Below, piece after piece: positions 39,013-47,818 of a stretch of DNA of 64,000 nucleotides. The notes below the pieces were generated by a model. That model worked only from the letters and a program-made list of their open reading frames with translations, was not told the DNA's origin and ran no database searches. Location of the stretch: contig NZ_JACHLL010000006.1 in assembly GCF_014207935.1 (NCBI RefSeq), positions 186,001 to 250,000 on the forward strand. The letters run 5' to 3'. Source of the stretch: Pseudomonas fluvialis (GTDB lineage Bacteria > Pseudomonadota > Gammaproteobacteria > Pseudomonadales > Pseudomonadaceae). The translations under genes and the position numbers were made by a program. The stretch's first letter is position 1. Every line of letters begins with the position of its first letter.

Positions 39013-39102
39013 GGAAGCGTGGCAGAGCGGTTGAATGCAACGGTCTTGAAAACCGTCGAAGGGGAAACTCTTCCGTGAGTTCGAATCTCACCGCTTCCGC
39101 CA
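39013..39102 (+). tRNA. tRNA-Ser (anticodon UGA)
   Basis: The 90-nt gene folds into a tRNA with acceptor GGAAGCG/CGCTTCC, discriminator G and encoded CCA. The anticodon TGA sits in the loop CTTGAAA, and there is a long variable arm typical of tRNA-Ser. Its last 17 nt (39086-39102) are duplicated at 41960-41976, so it is the integration site of the following island. Confidence 0.96.
39086..39102 (+). repeat. attL: tRNA-Ser 3' end repeat, left copy
   Basis: This is the 17-bp left copy of the direct repeat, which forms part of the functional tRNA-Ser gene. Integration by a tyrosine recombinase at a tRNA 3' end leaves this arrangement. Confidence 0.85.
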
Positions 39103-39157
39103 ACTAACATGTTGTTTCCATTGATATTTTCTTGATTCAGTACCGAAAAGGGAGCGT

Positions 39158-39190
39158 TTTGGGAACACTTTGGGAACACTTTGGGAACAA
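39158..39190. repeat. three tandem 11-bp repeats (TTTGGGAACAC)
   Basis: Three head-to-tail copies occupy 39158-39168, 39169-39179 and 39180-39190, the last with one change at its end. The 11-bp period is close to one DNA turn. A 12-bp repeat GTTTGCGAGTGC follows at 39197-39208 and 39221-39232. The position between tRNA and integrase remnant fits integrase arm-type sites. Confidence 0.6.
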
Positions 39191-39301
39191 TCGCCAGTTT
39201 GCGAGTGCCCCAGCGGTAGGGTTTGCGAGTGCTGGAGCGTCGATTTCTGCAGTGATTTTCAGGTGGGCCGCTAACTATCGCTGTCAGGGCCGCCGGAACA
39301 A

Positions 39302-39330
39302 AAAAAAGGCACCTCATGGGTGCCTTTTTT
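39302..39330. terminator. bidirectional terminator after the island lipoprotein gene
   Basis: AAAAAAGGCACC (39302-39313) and GGTGCCTTTTTT (39319-39330) form a hairpin with A/T runs on both sides. It closes the minus-strand gene ending at 39360 and would also stop transcription coming out of tRNA-Ser. Confidence 0.88.
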
Positions 39331-39359
39331 GTTTCTTCACTTTGTCGCTGATGAGCCTG

Positions 39360-39917
39360 TTACGGCGTACTGGTGGTCTGGCCCGCGCTGGCATCTTCCA
39401 TAATTTTAGCGCGCACGTTTTGGAAGTGGGCCTCGAGTAGCTGGTTAGCGACTGGCATCTTCCAGTTCAGTGCGCGGGCATCCGGGCTGTTGCTGATTTC
39501 GCTGATCTCGGCCTGCTGTGCCTCAGAAAGACCCGGCGGATCCATTCCGACTACAGCGAGCTCGAACAGGCGGCCGACTTTCTTGCTCTCCTCAGGGGTG
39601 AAGAGAACTGCAAATTTTCGGGCCATCTGGTCGGTGAAGTACTCTCTGGTCAGGTAAGGCTCAGCCTTCTGAACCACCATTCGCTTCTGCTCTTCGGGCT
39701 CAGGCAGCGACGCCAGCATCGTATTAATTCGATCCCTGGATTTTTGATAGGTCGAGTCGTAATAGGTGTGCGCAAGGTCGATACCAGCCTGCATCCGAAT
39801 CGGGTCGCCTTCTGGGTTCGACATAACCGACTCAGTGGACTGTGTTGGGGGCGGGGTAGAGCAACCACTGAGTAAACTCAGGAAAAGCAGGGTAAACACT
39901 AGGTGGATCGAGCGCAT
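39360..39917 (-). CDS. putative lipoprotein, possibly DUF2059-like
   Basis: The 185-residue product has a lipoprotein signal peptide with lipobox LSGC at Cys19 and then a proline- and serine-rich stretch. The C-terminal half (about 110-165: FAVLFTPEESKKVGRLFELA ... SEISNSPDARALNWKMP) recalls DUF2059, but the match is weak. The ATG at 39917 has AAGGA at good spacing. Its frame is continuous with the integrase stump upstream, so a fused product is also possible. The function is unknown. Confidence 0.65.
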   Translation of the reverse strand: MRSIHLVFTLLFLSLLSGCSTPPPTQSTESVMSNPEGDPIRMQAGIDLAHTYYDSTYQKSRDRINTMLASLPEPEEQKRMVVQKAEPYLTREYFTDQMARKFAVLFTPEESKKVGRLFELAVVGMDPPGLSEAQQAEISEISNSPDARALNWKMPVANQLLEAHFQNVRAKIMEDASAGQTTSTP

Positions 39918-40316
39918 TCTCTGTCCTTTAGGGGGATGTGGATGGCGGGAGAGTACACAAAGCCTTTCGGCGGCTGCTACGTGTGCCCAGCAAAAAGCTG
40001 CTCGTAAGCGATATTCGAGCTTCAAGGCCTGATTCAAAAGACCCACGAAGTCCGGGCCATCCTTGCTGATCCACCTCGCGTAGTGTTTGAAAATCATCGT
40101 CGTGGATGTGTGCCCCATCTGATCCGCAATCCACTCAGGAGTGGCAATGCCGCTGCTCAGCATCTGGCTGGCGAAGGTGTGCCGGCACTGGTTCGGGCCG
40201 CGTGGTCGCACGCCGGCCTTCTTCAAGTGCGATTTCCACCAGCCATTGCGCAGCGTGTCCGAGGTTGAGTACGCCTCTCCGCACAACGTATCGCACCGAT
40301 CAGGCGCGCACTGCGA
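39918..40316 (-). pseudogene. C-terminal remnant of a tyrosine recombinase (integrase)
   Basis: The minus-strand frame starts right after a stop at 40317-40319 and encodes only the last part of a phage-type integrase. The second active-site arginine is in CRHTFAS, the histidine in MGHTSTT and the tyrosine nucleophile in HYARWI. The N-terminal and core-binding domains and the first arginine are absent. There is no stop before the following lipoprotein start, so the frame runs straight into it. The enzyme cannot be active. Confidence 0.85.
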
Positions 40317-40346
40317 TCACTGAAAGGCGAAGCTAAAAGCGACCTG

Positions 40347-40547
40347 ATGTTCAGCGAACCCAAGGAGGGCTTTCAAAGCGTGCTCCGGTGGTCGGTGTAC
40401 TGCGCCAAGAACGAAATGTCGGTTCTTGAAGCACCTGAACTCAAACAGCACTACGACCTGCTTCCCGGCAAGGCAACGTTCATTTCCCGCCCGCTCCTCC
40501 AGCAGACTCGGGAGCACTACGAGACGGTAATCCTGCCTTTCGCATAG
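40347..40547 (+). CDS. unrecognised short protein, probably a gene remnant
   Basis: An open frame of 66 codons starting at ATG 40347 encodes a soluble peptide beginning MFSEPKEGFQSVLRW. The frame is open further upstream to about 40270 without a start, and no ribosome-binding site is evident. This suggests the end of a truncated island gene. It is directly followed by a 9-bp GC-rich hairpin at 40558-40580. I do not recognise the family. Confidence 0.3.
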   Translation: MFSEPKEGFQSVLRWSVYCAKNEMSVLEAPELKQHYDLLPGKATFISRPLLQQTREHYETVILPFA

Positions 40548-40590
40548 CCCCTCAAATCGCCCTGTGCGGCTCACAGGGCGCGAGATAGAA

Positions 40591-40689
40591 ATGAAGGCTA
40601 CCCACGTGGCGCTTTTTGCACTTCTCGCGACCAGCGCGATTTCTGCCCCCATCCTGAGCACTGACAGCACAGGGCCTGCTACTGCCTAA
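40591..40689 (+). CDS. candidate small exported peptide
   Basis: A 32-codon frame from ATG 40591 encodes MKATHVALFALLATSAISAP and a short polar tail, which looks like a cleavable signal peptide with little mature sequence. The ribosome-binding site is weak (GAGATAG). It may be a chance frame or a decayed exported protein. Confidence 0.22.
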   Translation: MKATHVALFALLATSAISAPILSTDSTGPATA

Positions 40690-40854
40690 AATGAAGTAAG
40701 GTCCGATATGTGCGCCCCGGATCAAAGCTAAGTTTGCAACAAGGCTGATCAGTACGAAGAGTGAAAAGGCATTACGAAAGCAAAGCAGTTCGCGGATTAG
40801 CTAAACTCACCTGAAAGGTTCGGAACCAGGCGTCACGATTAGGGGTTATCACGG

Positions 40855-41622
40855 ATGAATAGTTTTTTAAGAATCACCACGCTGCTCTTGGTATTAGCAG
40901 GCGTCTCATCATGCGACTCAGAAAAATACAAATATAAGGCCTTTGAAAAGCTATCTGTCCCAGAAAAGCTCCAGAACCGTCAATGCCCTAAGCCTATTGG
41001 AGAAAGAAGTCTTGCCGGTTCAAACGAGCAGGCATTTGGGCCGTATAAATTTCAATATACAGACAATCTCCTTGGTATCGGCGCATATATGTCAAGTAAA
41101 GTAGGCGATCCTAAAATAAACCAATACGGAGAGCGAAGCAGAGTTGACGATAACCAAGAGACGCTGAATTTCGGATTCTATCTGCCAGATACTATACCCA
41201 CATTCTTGAATTATACAGAGCAGCGCAAGCGGATTGATCGTGGCGAATTATTTGCAGTAAATGTTGAGCTTTTCTGGAGTCAGCGCGAAACGGTAATTCC
41301 CGAAAGCGGGCATACAATCTCAAGAATAACCACTAGATCATCCTCACCCTGGTCGAAAACCACAGATGACTTAATGGTGAAAGAGCAAGAAGAGCGCGGT
41401 CTCTTATTTTACATATACGCCCCGACAGGCAATTCCATACCAAGCGCAGTGAAATTCATATCCTGCGAAACCAACTGCACAGTTATAAGCAAAATCAGGA
41501 AAGATGTTTGGCTACGCTATTCGTATCCAAGCGCCAACATTAAGTGCTGGCGCTACATTGATGAAGAAGTTCATCGGATGCTAAGCGAAACTACTTCCAA
41601 CTGGGCCAGTTCAGAGAAATAG
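40855..41622 (+). CDS. island-encoded putative lipoprotein
   Basis: The 255-residue product begins with a hydrophobic stretch and the lipobox VSSC (Cys20), so a membrane-anchored lipoprotein is likely. The mature part is polar and has no transmembrane segment. Cysteines at CETNC could form a disulfide. AGGGG precedes the start. Codon use is much more AT-rich than in flanking housekeeping genes, which supports horizontal origin. I recognise no family. Confidence 0.7.
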   Translation: MNSFLRITTLLLVLAGVSSCDSEKYKYKAFEKLSVPEKLQNRQCPKPIGERSLAGSNEQAFGPYKFQYTDNLLGIGAYMSSKVGDPKINQYGERSRVDDNQETLNFGFYLPDTIPTFLNYTEQRKRIDRGELFAVNVELFWSQRETVIPESGHTISRITTRSSSPWSKTTDDLMVKEQEERGLLFYIYAPTGNSIPSAVKFISCETNCTVISKIRKDVWLRYSYPSANIKCWRYIDEEVHRMLSETTSNWASSEK

Positions 41623-42091
41623 CTCCGCAGTTCCACAAACTCAGGATTACCGAACCGCTCACACCTAAGCCGCCTGGCCACAAGAAAAGGGTATCCGAAG
41701 CCGCAACAGCTATCGTGCTGACGATCTATCTAGCGATGAACCGGGAACCCTTTAAGTGCACCTGATTGCCGAACTTTTTCTGTGCGCGACGGCAGCCCAT
41801 AGGACGCCAGCCGGCATCTACAAGGAGTCGCAGCGGTCTTTAGCCGTTGCCCAGCGATTGCCCCGCCTTGTAAGATGCGCCACTAATCAATGACGTTCAC
41901 AGGCTCCACTTGCTTGCGCGTAGCCCTAGAAAACCCCAGTGCAGAGCAGTGAGATCATCTCTCACCGCTTCCGCCATATTTGCTCTGCCTGCGCACCGCG
42001 CAGGCGAGCCAGAGCGACAGGCAACAGCCCGTCTGGCATTCCGAACAAGACCGCTGCATGGATGGCGGCTCGCGTGTAGGCGAGGTGATGT
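41623..42091. other. island right end and gacA upstream region
   Basis: This 469-bp gap holds no convincing gene. A frame open from 41565 to 41765 without a usable start encodes a peptide ending LAMNREPFKCT and may be another gene fragment. The right attachment repeat is at 41960-41976. After it, the remaining 115 bp must supply the gacA promoter. No clear sigma70 site was found there. Confidence 0.5.
41960..41976 (+). repeat. attR: tRNA-Ser 3' end repeat, right copy
   Basis: The 17 bases TCTCACCGCTTCCGCCA are identical to the last 17 nt of tRNA-Ser at 39086-39102. No other part of the tRNA is duplicated, which is what integration at a tRNA 3' end leaves. Confidence 0.85.
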
Positions 42092-42722
42092 GTGATTCGT
42101 GTTCTGGTGGTCGATGACCACGATCTGGTTCGCACAGGCATTACCCGCATGCTGGCTGATATCAGTGGCCTGCACGTGGTCGGTGAAGCCGAAACGGGCG
42201 AGGAAGCCCTGAAGAAAGTTCGCGAACTCAAGCCCGACGTCGTCCTCATGGACGTCAAGATGCCCGGCATCGGCGGCCTTGAGGCCACACGCAAGCTGCA
42301 GCACAGCCATCCCGATACCAAAGTCGTTGCCGTCACCGTGTGCGAGGACGATCCGTTTCCCACGCGCTTGATGCAGGCTGGCGCCGCTGGTTATCTGACC
42401 AAGGGCGCGGCGCTCGAGGAAATGGTTCAGGCCATTCGCCAGGTTTTTGCCGGGCAGCGCTACATCAGCCCGCAGATTGCCCAGCAGATGGCCCTCAAGT
42501 CGTTCCAGCCGAAGGCCAGTGAGTCGCCATTCGAGCTGTTGTCCGAACGGGAAATCCAGATTGCCCTGATGATCGTCAGCTGCCAGAAGGTGCAGGACAT
42601 CTCAGACAAGCTGTGCCTGTCGCCCAAGACGGTCAATACCTACCGTTACCGCATCTTCGACAAGCTGGACATCACCAGCGACGTCGAGCTGGCCCTACTG
42701 GCCGTGCGGCATGGCATGGTCG

Positions 42723-42736
<14 letters not shown>
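42092..42736 (+). CDS. gacA: response regulator GacA
   Basis: GacA, activated by GacS, switches on the small RNAs that sequester RsmA/CsrA, controlling secondary metabolism and lifestyle. The 214-residue protein has a receiver domain with Asp54 (VVLMDVKMP) and a LuxR-type helix-turn-helix near residues 150-205 ([12 protein letters not shown] ... [16 protein letters not shown]). It starts with GTG at 42092 after GAGGTG. uvrC overlaps its 3' end, the usual gacA-uvrC pairing. Confidence 0.97.
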
Positions 42737-45919: not shown

Positions 45920-47818
45920 GTGATCATGGACAGGATGCCGCAGAGGGCAGCTCAAGAGATTCTACGTACCCCACCGAGACCGCTGGTGGTAGCGAAAATA
46001 GTCCTTATCTTGCTTGTCTGGGCGAGCGGCTCAATGCCAGCGCTGGCCAAGAATTGCAATACCAACGGACATCTGCGCTTTGTCGGAACAACGGCCGATG
46101 CTGCACGCTCGGTATGGCTCTCCGCGACCTCTGCCGGAGCATTCAGGCTGGACTCTGCGCAGGGTAATCAGACCGTCGATAGCTGGAGTAAAAATCGCCG
46201 CGGCTTGCACCTGTCGCTGTCTCCAAACGTATCCAACGGCAATGGCGGGACGCACAAACTCTATGACAACAGCAACAGTGGTGATTGCCTGCTGGATACG
46301 CAAAATCAAATAGGTGGTTTTGTCCTGCCGCCGACCTTCATCCCGCCGACAATAGCCCGCCCGCCGATTGGCACGCTGCCTCCCAGCGGGCTGATGCCCT
46401 CGCTGCCCGGTGGCGTGACCCCGCCGATGGGCACGCTGCCTCCCAGCGGGCTGATGCCCTCGCTGCCCGGTGGCGTGACCCCGCCGATGGGCACGCTGCC
46501 TCCCAGCGGGCTGATGCCCTCGCTGCCCGGTGGCGTGACCCCGCCGATGGGCACGCTGCCTCCCAGCGGGCTGATGCCCTCGCTGCCCGGTGGCGTGACC
46601 CCGCCGATGGGCACGCTGCCTCCCAGCGGGCTGATGCCCTCGCTACCCGGTGGCGTGACCCCGCCGATGGGCACGCTGCCTCCCAGCGGGCTGATGCCCT
46701 CGCTACCCGGTGGCGTGACCCCGCCGATTGGTACGCTGCCTCCTGACGGACTAAAGCCAACGCGGCCTGGTGGCGTTACTCCCCCGATTGGCACGCTGCC
46801 ACCGGATGGGCTCATGCCCGGCACGGAAGATGCCCACGAGTTACAGCTGGCCGCTTCGTCAGTCCAACTAGCAGCTGAGCGTTGCCCACCTGGCGCGCGA
46901 GAGGATATCTCTGCTCCGGGATCGGTCGACGCAAGCCGATGTCGCGCGCTCGGAGAACAGTACTCGGCGCAACCGAGTGCTGCTGCAGTGCCGATCACAC
47001 CGGGGCGCGACCTGCTGGACGATACTCAGTGGAACAGCTGGGTCGATACCAGCTATATGCGTATCCGAGACCGCCGCGAAAATCAGGATATCGACGGTAC
47101 AGGTGGCGTATTGCTGCTAGGTACGGATCGCCGTGTCGGCGATGCCATGGTAGCCGGCATGATGATCTCTATGGAAAACAGTCGTACGGATGCCTATGGC
47201 GGCGAGCAGCAGATTGATGTCAATGGCTTTATGGTAGGCCCTTACATGGCGTATCAGCTCACACCGGTCTGGTCACTGTATGCCAATTTCAATATCGGAC
47301 ATTTCAACCAGGATCAGGAGCTGTCGACACTTAGCGGCAGTGGCGATGTGCAGCGCTATGCCTTGACCTTGAACGCCGAGGGGCAGTATGCAGTTGATGA
47401 GGTTTACCTGCGCCCCAAGATTCTGCTCAGTTATTTGCATAGTAATAACGAAGCATACGAGCTAGAAGGAGCAATCGAGGGGCAGGCGATCCACTTGCGG
47501 TTGCCTGAAGACAGTTACAACACTGGCAGCCTGCAACCGTCACTGGAGATCAGTCGGCAAATCAGCTTCAGCAATGGTTCAGTGTTCGTACCCTATGCCG
47601 AAGTTGGCATCAGCTATGCGTTTGAGCGACCCGATGCTACAGAACTGTATCTCGCGGGTACGGATGAACCGAGCCGCTTTAGCGGCATGATGCGGCTCGG
47701 GGCGCGTACCTTGGTCGGCGAGTCCAGCATGCTGGACTTCAACAGCAGTTACCAAAGTATCGGCACACCTGGGCTGGATGTGTGGGAAGCGGAGGTGCTC
47801 TTCTCACATGGATTCTGA
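45920..47818 (+). CDS. autotransporter with proline-rich 20-residue repeats
   Basis: The 632-residue protein is a type Va-like secreted protein. A signal peptide ends near MPALA-KN at about residue 43. A short passenger of about 90 residues follows, then eight 20-residue proline-rich repeats (about residues 148-307), a linker, and a C-terminal beta-barrel (about 370-632) ending in SHGF with terminal Phe. The barrel matches the autotransporter pattern of alternating strands. The passenger is very small and has no known enzyme motif. GTG 45920 or ATG 45926 may be the start. Confidence 0.8.
   Translation: MIMDRMPQRAAQEILRTPPRPLVVAKIVLILLVWASGSMPALAKNCNTNGHLRFVGTTADAARSVWLSATSAGAFRLDSAQGNQTVDSWSKNRRGLHLSLSPNVSNGNGGTHKLYDNSNSGDCLLDTQNQIGGFVLPPTFIPPTIARPPIGTLPPSGLMPSLPGGVTPPMGTLPPSGLMPSLPGGVTPPMGTLPPSGLMPSLPGGVTPPMGTLPPSGLMPSLPGGVTPPMGTLPPSGLMPSLPGGVTPPMGTLPPSGLMPSLPGGVTPPIGTLPPDGLKPTRPGGVTPPIGTLPPDGLMPGTEDAHELQLAASSVQLAAERCPPGAREDISAPGSVDASRCRALGEQYSAQPSAAAVPITPGRDLLDDTQWNSWVDTSYMRIRDRRENQDIDGTGGVLLLGTDRRVGDAMVAGMMISMENSRTDAYGGEQQIDVNGFMVGPYMAYQLTPVWSLYANFNIGHFNQDQELSTLSGSGDVQRYALTLNAEGQYAVDEVYLRPKILLSYLHSNNEAYELEGAIEGQAIHLRLPEDSYNTGSLQPSLEISRQISFSNGSVFVPYAEVGISYAFERPDATELYLAGTDEPSRFSGMMRLGARTLVGESSMLDFNSSYQSIGTPGLDVWEAEVLFSHGF
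46361..46840 (+). repeat. eight tandem 60-bp repeats inside the autotransporter gene
   Basis: Units start at 46361, 46421, 46481, 46541, 46601, 46661, 46721 and 46781. Units 2-6 encode the same 20 residues (PPMGTLPPSG then LMPSLPGGVT), several being identical in DNA. Units 1, 7 and 8 differ (PPIG; LKPTRPGG; the last breaks off). Because the unit is a multiple of three, gain or loss of copies would keep the frame. Confidence 0.95.

Follow-up and report, generated by a model that had tools for sequence, protein, structure and literature searches.

A 2.9-kb piece of DNA inserted at the 3' end of a tRNA-Ser(UGA) gene in Pseudomonas fluvialis is very probably the decayed scar of an element with a phiCTX-family integrase, either a P2-like prophage or an island. 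The piece lies in a stretch of 64,000 nucleotides (contig NZ_JACHLL010000006.1, positions 186,001 to 250,000; hereafter the window, whose own numbering is used throughout), between the tRNA gene and a response-regulator gene that we take, following an earlier note on this DNA, to be gacA. The note, made from the sequence alone, had described a decayed genomic island of 2.9 kb bounded by tRNA-Ser repeats. This size is roughly right; the inserted unit amounts to 2,874 bp when one repeat copy is counted. That a phiCTX-family tyrosine recombinase inserted the element at the tRNA 3' end is supported by the flanking repeats, by an empty site in a close relative and by fuller elements in other genomes. 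The scar is real and decayed, and it is an ordinary feature of a known sort. It provides a clean example of a tRNA-borne phage element wearing down, the empty site being preserved in a close relative, and leaves the understanding of such elements unchanged.

The insert is bounded by copies of the tRNA-Ser 3' end

The tRNA-Ser(UGA) gene that served as attachment site (39013-39102, forward strand) was located with ARAGORN and is intact across the junction. Its last 17 nt (39086-39102, forward strand), the attL core, had been noted to recur exactly at 41960-41976 (forward strand), the attR core, and a pattern search confirmed this. With two mismatches permitted, the window still holds these two copies only, and the exact sequence occurs just twice in the organism's own genome (3.95 Mb, 15 contigs). 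Thus, a direct repeat of the tRNA 3' end marks the far boundary of the insert, exact over 17 bp and, in a longer imperfect form, 86% identical over 28 bp (39075-39102 against 41949-41976). The longer repeat has four mismatches. By eye, every one of them falls within seven positions of the T-loop, and both halves of the T-stem (GTGAG and CTCAC) are retained in the right repeat (41949-41976).

The right copy could in principle have arisen by chance or through a small duplication that had nothing to do with integration, and the imperfect 28-nt extension, but nothing else, speaks for this. None of 100 dinucleotide shuffles held two copies of the 17-nt sequence, and the empty site described below joins exactly at the repeat, so that the probability of this explanation is negligible.

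A close relative carries the empty site

The insert together with the gacA flank was used as query in a scan of 398 genomes of the genus, 77 of which, the own genome included, gave any match. One genome alone, G402, proved to be a close relative. In G402, the tRNA-Ser gene continues directly into the region upstream of gacA. When 39103-41976 (2,874 bp) was excised from the window by script, the remaining sequence aligned with G402 over 3,527 bp at 94.0% identity and with zero gaps, the alignment reaching the end of that contig. A check proposed beforehand, that empty sites should lack exactly the segment between the repeats, is borne out by this ungapped alignment.

The tRNA-Ser to gacA interval was also inspected in 22 other loci, the genomes with a tRNA-Ser flank near gacA being picked by eye. 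In 13 of these loci a conserved motif near the gacA start begins 128-174 nt past the tRNA end, which marks these sites as empty too. Among the remaining nine, four (L030-L033) have insertions of 3-16 kb and one (L047) has 431 nt; L019, L028 and L029 gave no match to the tRNA-end pattern, and the stretch of L044 is without gacA. G042 has a small additional stretch in the interval, and G001, G147 and G109 showed no tRNA match with the pattern used. A literature search of partial coverage found no paper on this interval by title or abstract opening, and the site may nonetheless have been reported before.

The integrase stump and the left junction are of phiCTX type

Within the repeats, on the reverse strand, lies the C-terminal stump of a tyrosine integrase of the phiCTX family (40017-40292, corresponding to phiCTX residues ~297-388 of 389). 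According to the alignment with phiCTX, the stump ends at 40017 and starts at 40286-40292. An integrase remnant inside the repeats had been recognized in the earlier note, and the identification stands. The open reading frame (ORF) containing the stump matched a PHROG integrase family (2.4e-11) and scored 26.5 bits for Pfam Phage_integrase, slightly below the curated cut-off of 27.1, while the stump itself shares 88.6% identity with the phiCTX integrase C-terminus. About 296 N-terminal residues are missing. The stop codon is gone as well, and the frame extends into the neighbouring lipoprotein gene 1 (308-aa ORF, 39360-40286). When the own genome was searched with the phiCTX integrase in its entirety, nothing matched residues 1-298 and a full integrase of phiCTX type was not found; besides the stump, one weak match was obtained (35% over 53 residues, E 0.009). 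The insert does not carry the complete integrase of a functional mobile element, and what accompanies the attachment site is a C-terminal stump, 915 nt away from the core.

P2-like structural or replication genes were not found, all 12 phage records that match the 2,857 bp falling within the integrase stump. In Pfam, PHROG and NCBIfam searches the four ORFs gave no convincing phage family besides the integrase. Both a prophage and an island are conceivable as the original element.

The element side of the left junction (39103-39189, forward strand, 87 bp) consists of an AT-rich stretch (GC 39.1%) followed by three repeats of the type GGGAACA, spaced by 11 bp. By eye, this layout matches that of phiCTX and of nine genomic elements. 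The repeats are predicted arm-type integrase sites. Adjoining them, an imperfect direct repeat of 19 nt (GTTTGCGAGTGC..., spacing 24 nt) was seen at 39197-39239; by eye, it does not appear in those left junctions of the relatives that were shown.

Phage phiCTX (Peduoviridae, Citexvirus) integrates into a tRNA-Ser gene according to PMC12024412, where Hayashi et al. 1993 is cited for this. In the phiCTX record D13409, an attP core of 30 bp is annotated, and its complement contains the tRNA-Ser 3' end, one base off in the 17 shared positions. The window resembles phiCTX in its integrase C-terminus, in the order of core, AT-rich stretch and GGGAACA repeats, and in a core that includes the tRNA-Ser 3' end; a phiCTX-type integrase and an attL of this layout thus occur together. 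Unlike phiCTX, the window keeps just the C-terminal quarter of the integrase, has a lipoprotein gene between integrase and att, and yielded no phage structural genes. The TTCGAA of the phiCTX core is absent from the attR of the window.

Fuller elements occupy the same tRNA end in other genomes

Eleven loci from other genomes of the genus were compared. A phiCTX-type left junction beside the tRNA-Ser end was present in nine of them (G028, G202, G133, G344, G007, G206, G127, G321 and G351). The two others were G024, with an integrase part ~5.6 kb from the tRNA, and G041, with an integrase stretch without a tRNA end. Alignment of the integrase with that of phiCTX covered all 389 residues in six of the nine, irrespective of internal stops. 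C-terminal parts alone aligned in G133 (L066, residues 282-388), G206 (L069, 210-384) and G127 (L070, 264-389). Judging from these sequences, integrase stumps that keep the att-proximal end may be a recurrent product of repeated decay, with assembly or frameshifts as possible causes in the other genomes.

In G028, two copies of the tRNA end lie 38.8 kb apart. Phage records match pieces of the first 19.1 kb of this island (at best 21% covered, 77% identity), and the names given include GpD tail protein, primase and late control D. The island has the same kind of site and left junction as the window, and its integrase shares 85% identity with that of phiCTX (389 residues) and 88.6% with the stump of the window (88 residues). 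In contrast to the window, its integrase aligns at full length, parts of it match phage genes (P2-type), and neither a lipoprotein of the window nor an 82-codon gene fragment described below was found in it. G344 has a second copy of its tRNA end 11.9 kb off and matches three phage records. Across the loci compared, no gene for a lipoprotein of the window and no counterpart of the 82-codon fragment was present. The expectation that full islands would extend the 2.9-kb piece therefore held for the left junction and the integrase, but failed for the lipoproteins, the 82-codon fragment and the DNA at the right end of the insert.

For Pseudomonas fluorescens Pf-5, prophage remnants located in tRNA genes are described in PMC2647930. 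As given there, prophage 02 of Pf-5 (8.4 kb) resembles the insert of the window in being a remnant in a tRNA-Ser gene with a broken integrase, and the T-loop belongs to its attachment site. It differs in being larger, in having an integrase that is frameshifted and not truncated, in carrying a nuclease gene, and in its attachment site of 60 bp (PMC2647930).

Two truncated genes face each other inside the insert

A second gene fragment was found on the forward strand at 40299-40547, its frame beginning 6-13 bases from the integrase break. It comprises 82 C-terminal codons and is kin to a 310-aa protein of G096, the single genome with a match among 198 others (44% over 75 residues, within the C-terminal half of the protein). 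The G096 protein had no Pfam or PHROG family, no relatives in viral contigs and no plasmid match, and a phiCTX-type integrase was not found in the G096 stretch. For the 82-codon fragment, viral contigs and phages gave nothing. A WHLHG motif led us to consider a replication protein, a reading that was not adopted.

The integrase (reverse strand) and the 82-codon fragment (forward strand) each lack the N-terminal part, on the side that faces the other. Since the two genes are truncated toward each other, we infer a single internal deletion. The loss of a larger island by deletion, as put forward in the earlier note, gains support from the decay and from the two facing truncated genes; the parent island itself was not found.

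A different view of the same features would be a small, satellite-like element of about this size, not decayed and mobilised by an integrase from elsewhere. Clean repeat boundaries and the lack of the insert in the close relative G402 would fit such an element. However, it carries stumps of an integrase and of a second gene, needless in a functional minimal element, no second copy was found in the own genome, and in the 397 other genomes of the genus just short parts match, mainly the integrase stump and the left junction. We regard a satellite as very improbable.

For the decayed scar the following history is proposed. An element with a phiCTX-family tyrosine integrase would have recombined at the 3' end of tRNA-Ser(UGA), directly upstream of gacA. 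The tRNA gene stayed intact at the left end and a copy of 17 bp came to lie at the right end, as the repeats and the empty site of G402 show. A later internal deletion would then have taken the N-terminal part of the integrase, that of the facing gene, and everything between them. With its integrase broken, the scar presumably cannot excise itself.

Several observations weigh against this account. In the window, 915 nt separate the end of the integrase from the core, compared to 123-127 nt (~125 nt) in the nine relatives, because ~830 bp between the attL repeats and the stump intervene, holding lipoprotein gene 1 and a terminator-like hairpin; in the relatives the gap leaves no space for a gene. 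The attR differs in its T-loop, and TTCGAA, which is kept in the right copies of G028 and G344, is absent from the right repeat of the window, so that this end may have mutated or may stem from a different element. A full element with the lipoproteins or the right-hand sequence was not found, and the lost island is something we infer and do not see. The empty site rests on G402, the sole close relative found, a fragmented draft of 2.7 Mb in ~560 contigs (77% complete, 5% contamination). Finally, other large insertions checked in the tRNA-Ser to gacA interval are without a full second tRNA end. In G082, G120, G138, G118 and G060 a second copy of the 17 nt was not found at up to two mismatches, G138 and G060 having a second 13-nt tail with one mismatch.

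Some of these features would be expected of a composite scar, in which two elements had inserted in tandem at the tRNA and a deletion had fused the phiCTX-type attL and integrase of one to lipoprotein gene 2 and attR of the other. The T-loop of attR differs from both the tRNA and the phiCTX attP core, GC content is 59.1% for the integrase stump and drops to 43.5% for lipoprotein gene 2, and in G028, too, ~2.3 kb separate the right repeat from gacA. A single decayed element takes fewer steps, however, and mosaic base composition is common within single mobile elements. A composite origin thus appears unlikely, and a single decayed element of the phiCTX integrase family is preferred.

The insert contains two lipoprotein genes

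Two ORFs inside the repeats encode proteins with lipoprotein-type signal peptides, the lipobox being read by eye. Lipoprotein gene 1 (39360-39917, reverse strand, 185 aa) has the integrase stump on one side and attL on the other; lipoprotein gene 2 (40855-41622, forward strand, 255 aa) has a GC content of 43.5% compared to 61.3% for the window. Both would be leftover or late-arriving cargo of the element. Relatives of the two proteins were found neither in the 397 other genomes of the genus nor in genome contigs, viral contigs, plasmids or PDB sequences, where the scans of genome and viral contigs with a single protein detect close relatives only. The earlier note took the two genes for possibly selected cargo, an idea that these searches neither favour nor disfavour.

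Gene 2 matched no Pfam, PHROG or NCBIfam model at E up to 1, and its predicted structure was unusable (mean predicted local distance difference test score, pLDDT, 28.9). Gene 1 had no Pfam match. Its weak matches were to PHROG Rz-like spanins (E 0.016 and 0.33), at the signal-peptide end, to one further PHROG, without assigned function (E 0.081), and to three models of NCBIfam (E 0.018-0.21, far below their cut-offs). The predicted model of gene 1 is all-helical, of middling confidence (mean pLDDT 73.7), and no fold is claimed, the best match among PDB structures having an E of 1.2. A DUF2059-like fold was considered and dropped as unsupported.

Gene 1 may have come with the phage or may have been acquired afterwards. 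It might possibly be a working lysogenic-conversion gene of the lost phage that was retained by the host, perhaps a surface or envelope factor such as one for superinfection exclusion, a role that we consider doubtful. Downstream of gene 1 lies the terminator-like hairpin (39302-39330, no strand assigned); in phiCTX, a terminator is annotated directly after the integrase stop codon. The scan found three terminator-like sites versus a shuffle mean of 3.7, that is, no excess.

Right end, gacA flank and other parts of the window

The right-hand stretch of the insert (41623-41959, no strand assigned) has no gene assigned to it. It gave no DNA match in the 398-genome scan beyond the repeat and the gacA flank. 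Further right follows gacA (42092-42736, forward strand), a conserved response-regulator gene whose type was present in all 149 genomes searched.

In the gap between tRNA-Ser and gacA, which in the window corresponds to 41977-42091, most of the 13 empty sites hold a conserved stretch like GGCGCTTGCTTTTTGAC...TGCGCCAAGCTAGG, as seen by eye. From its sequence this stretch looks like a candidate gacA promoter. It is seemingly absent from both the window and G402, and its loss would therefore predate the insertion.

In an ORF of 632 aa elsewhere in the window (45920-47818), a repeat of the type GTLPPSGLMPSLPGGVTPPM occurs six times in near-identical form and at least once in a diverged one, counted by eye. 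These repeats precede a C-terminal part that, by eye, resembles an autotransporter barrel.

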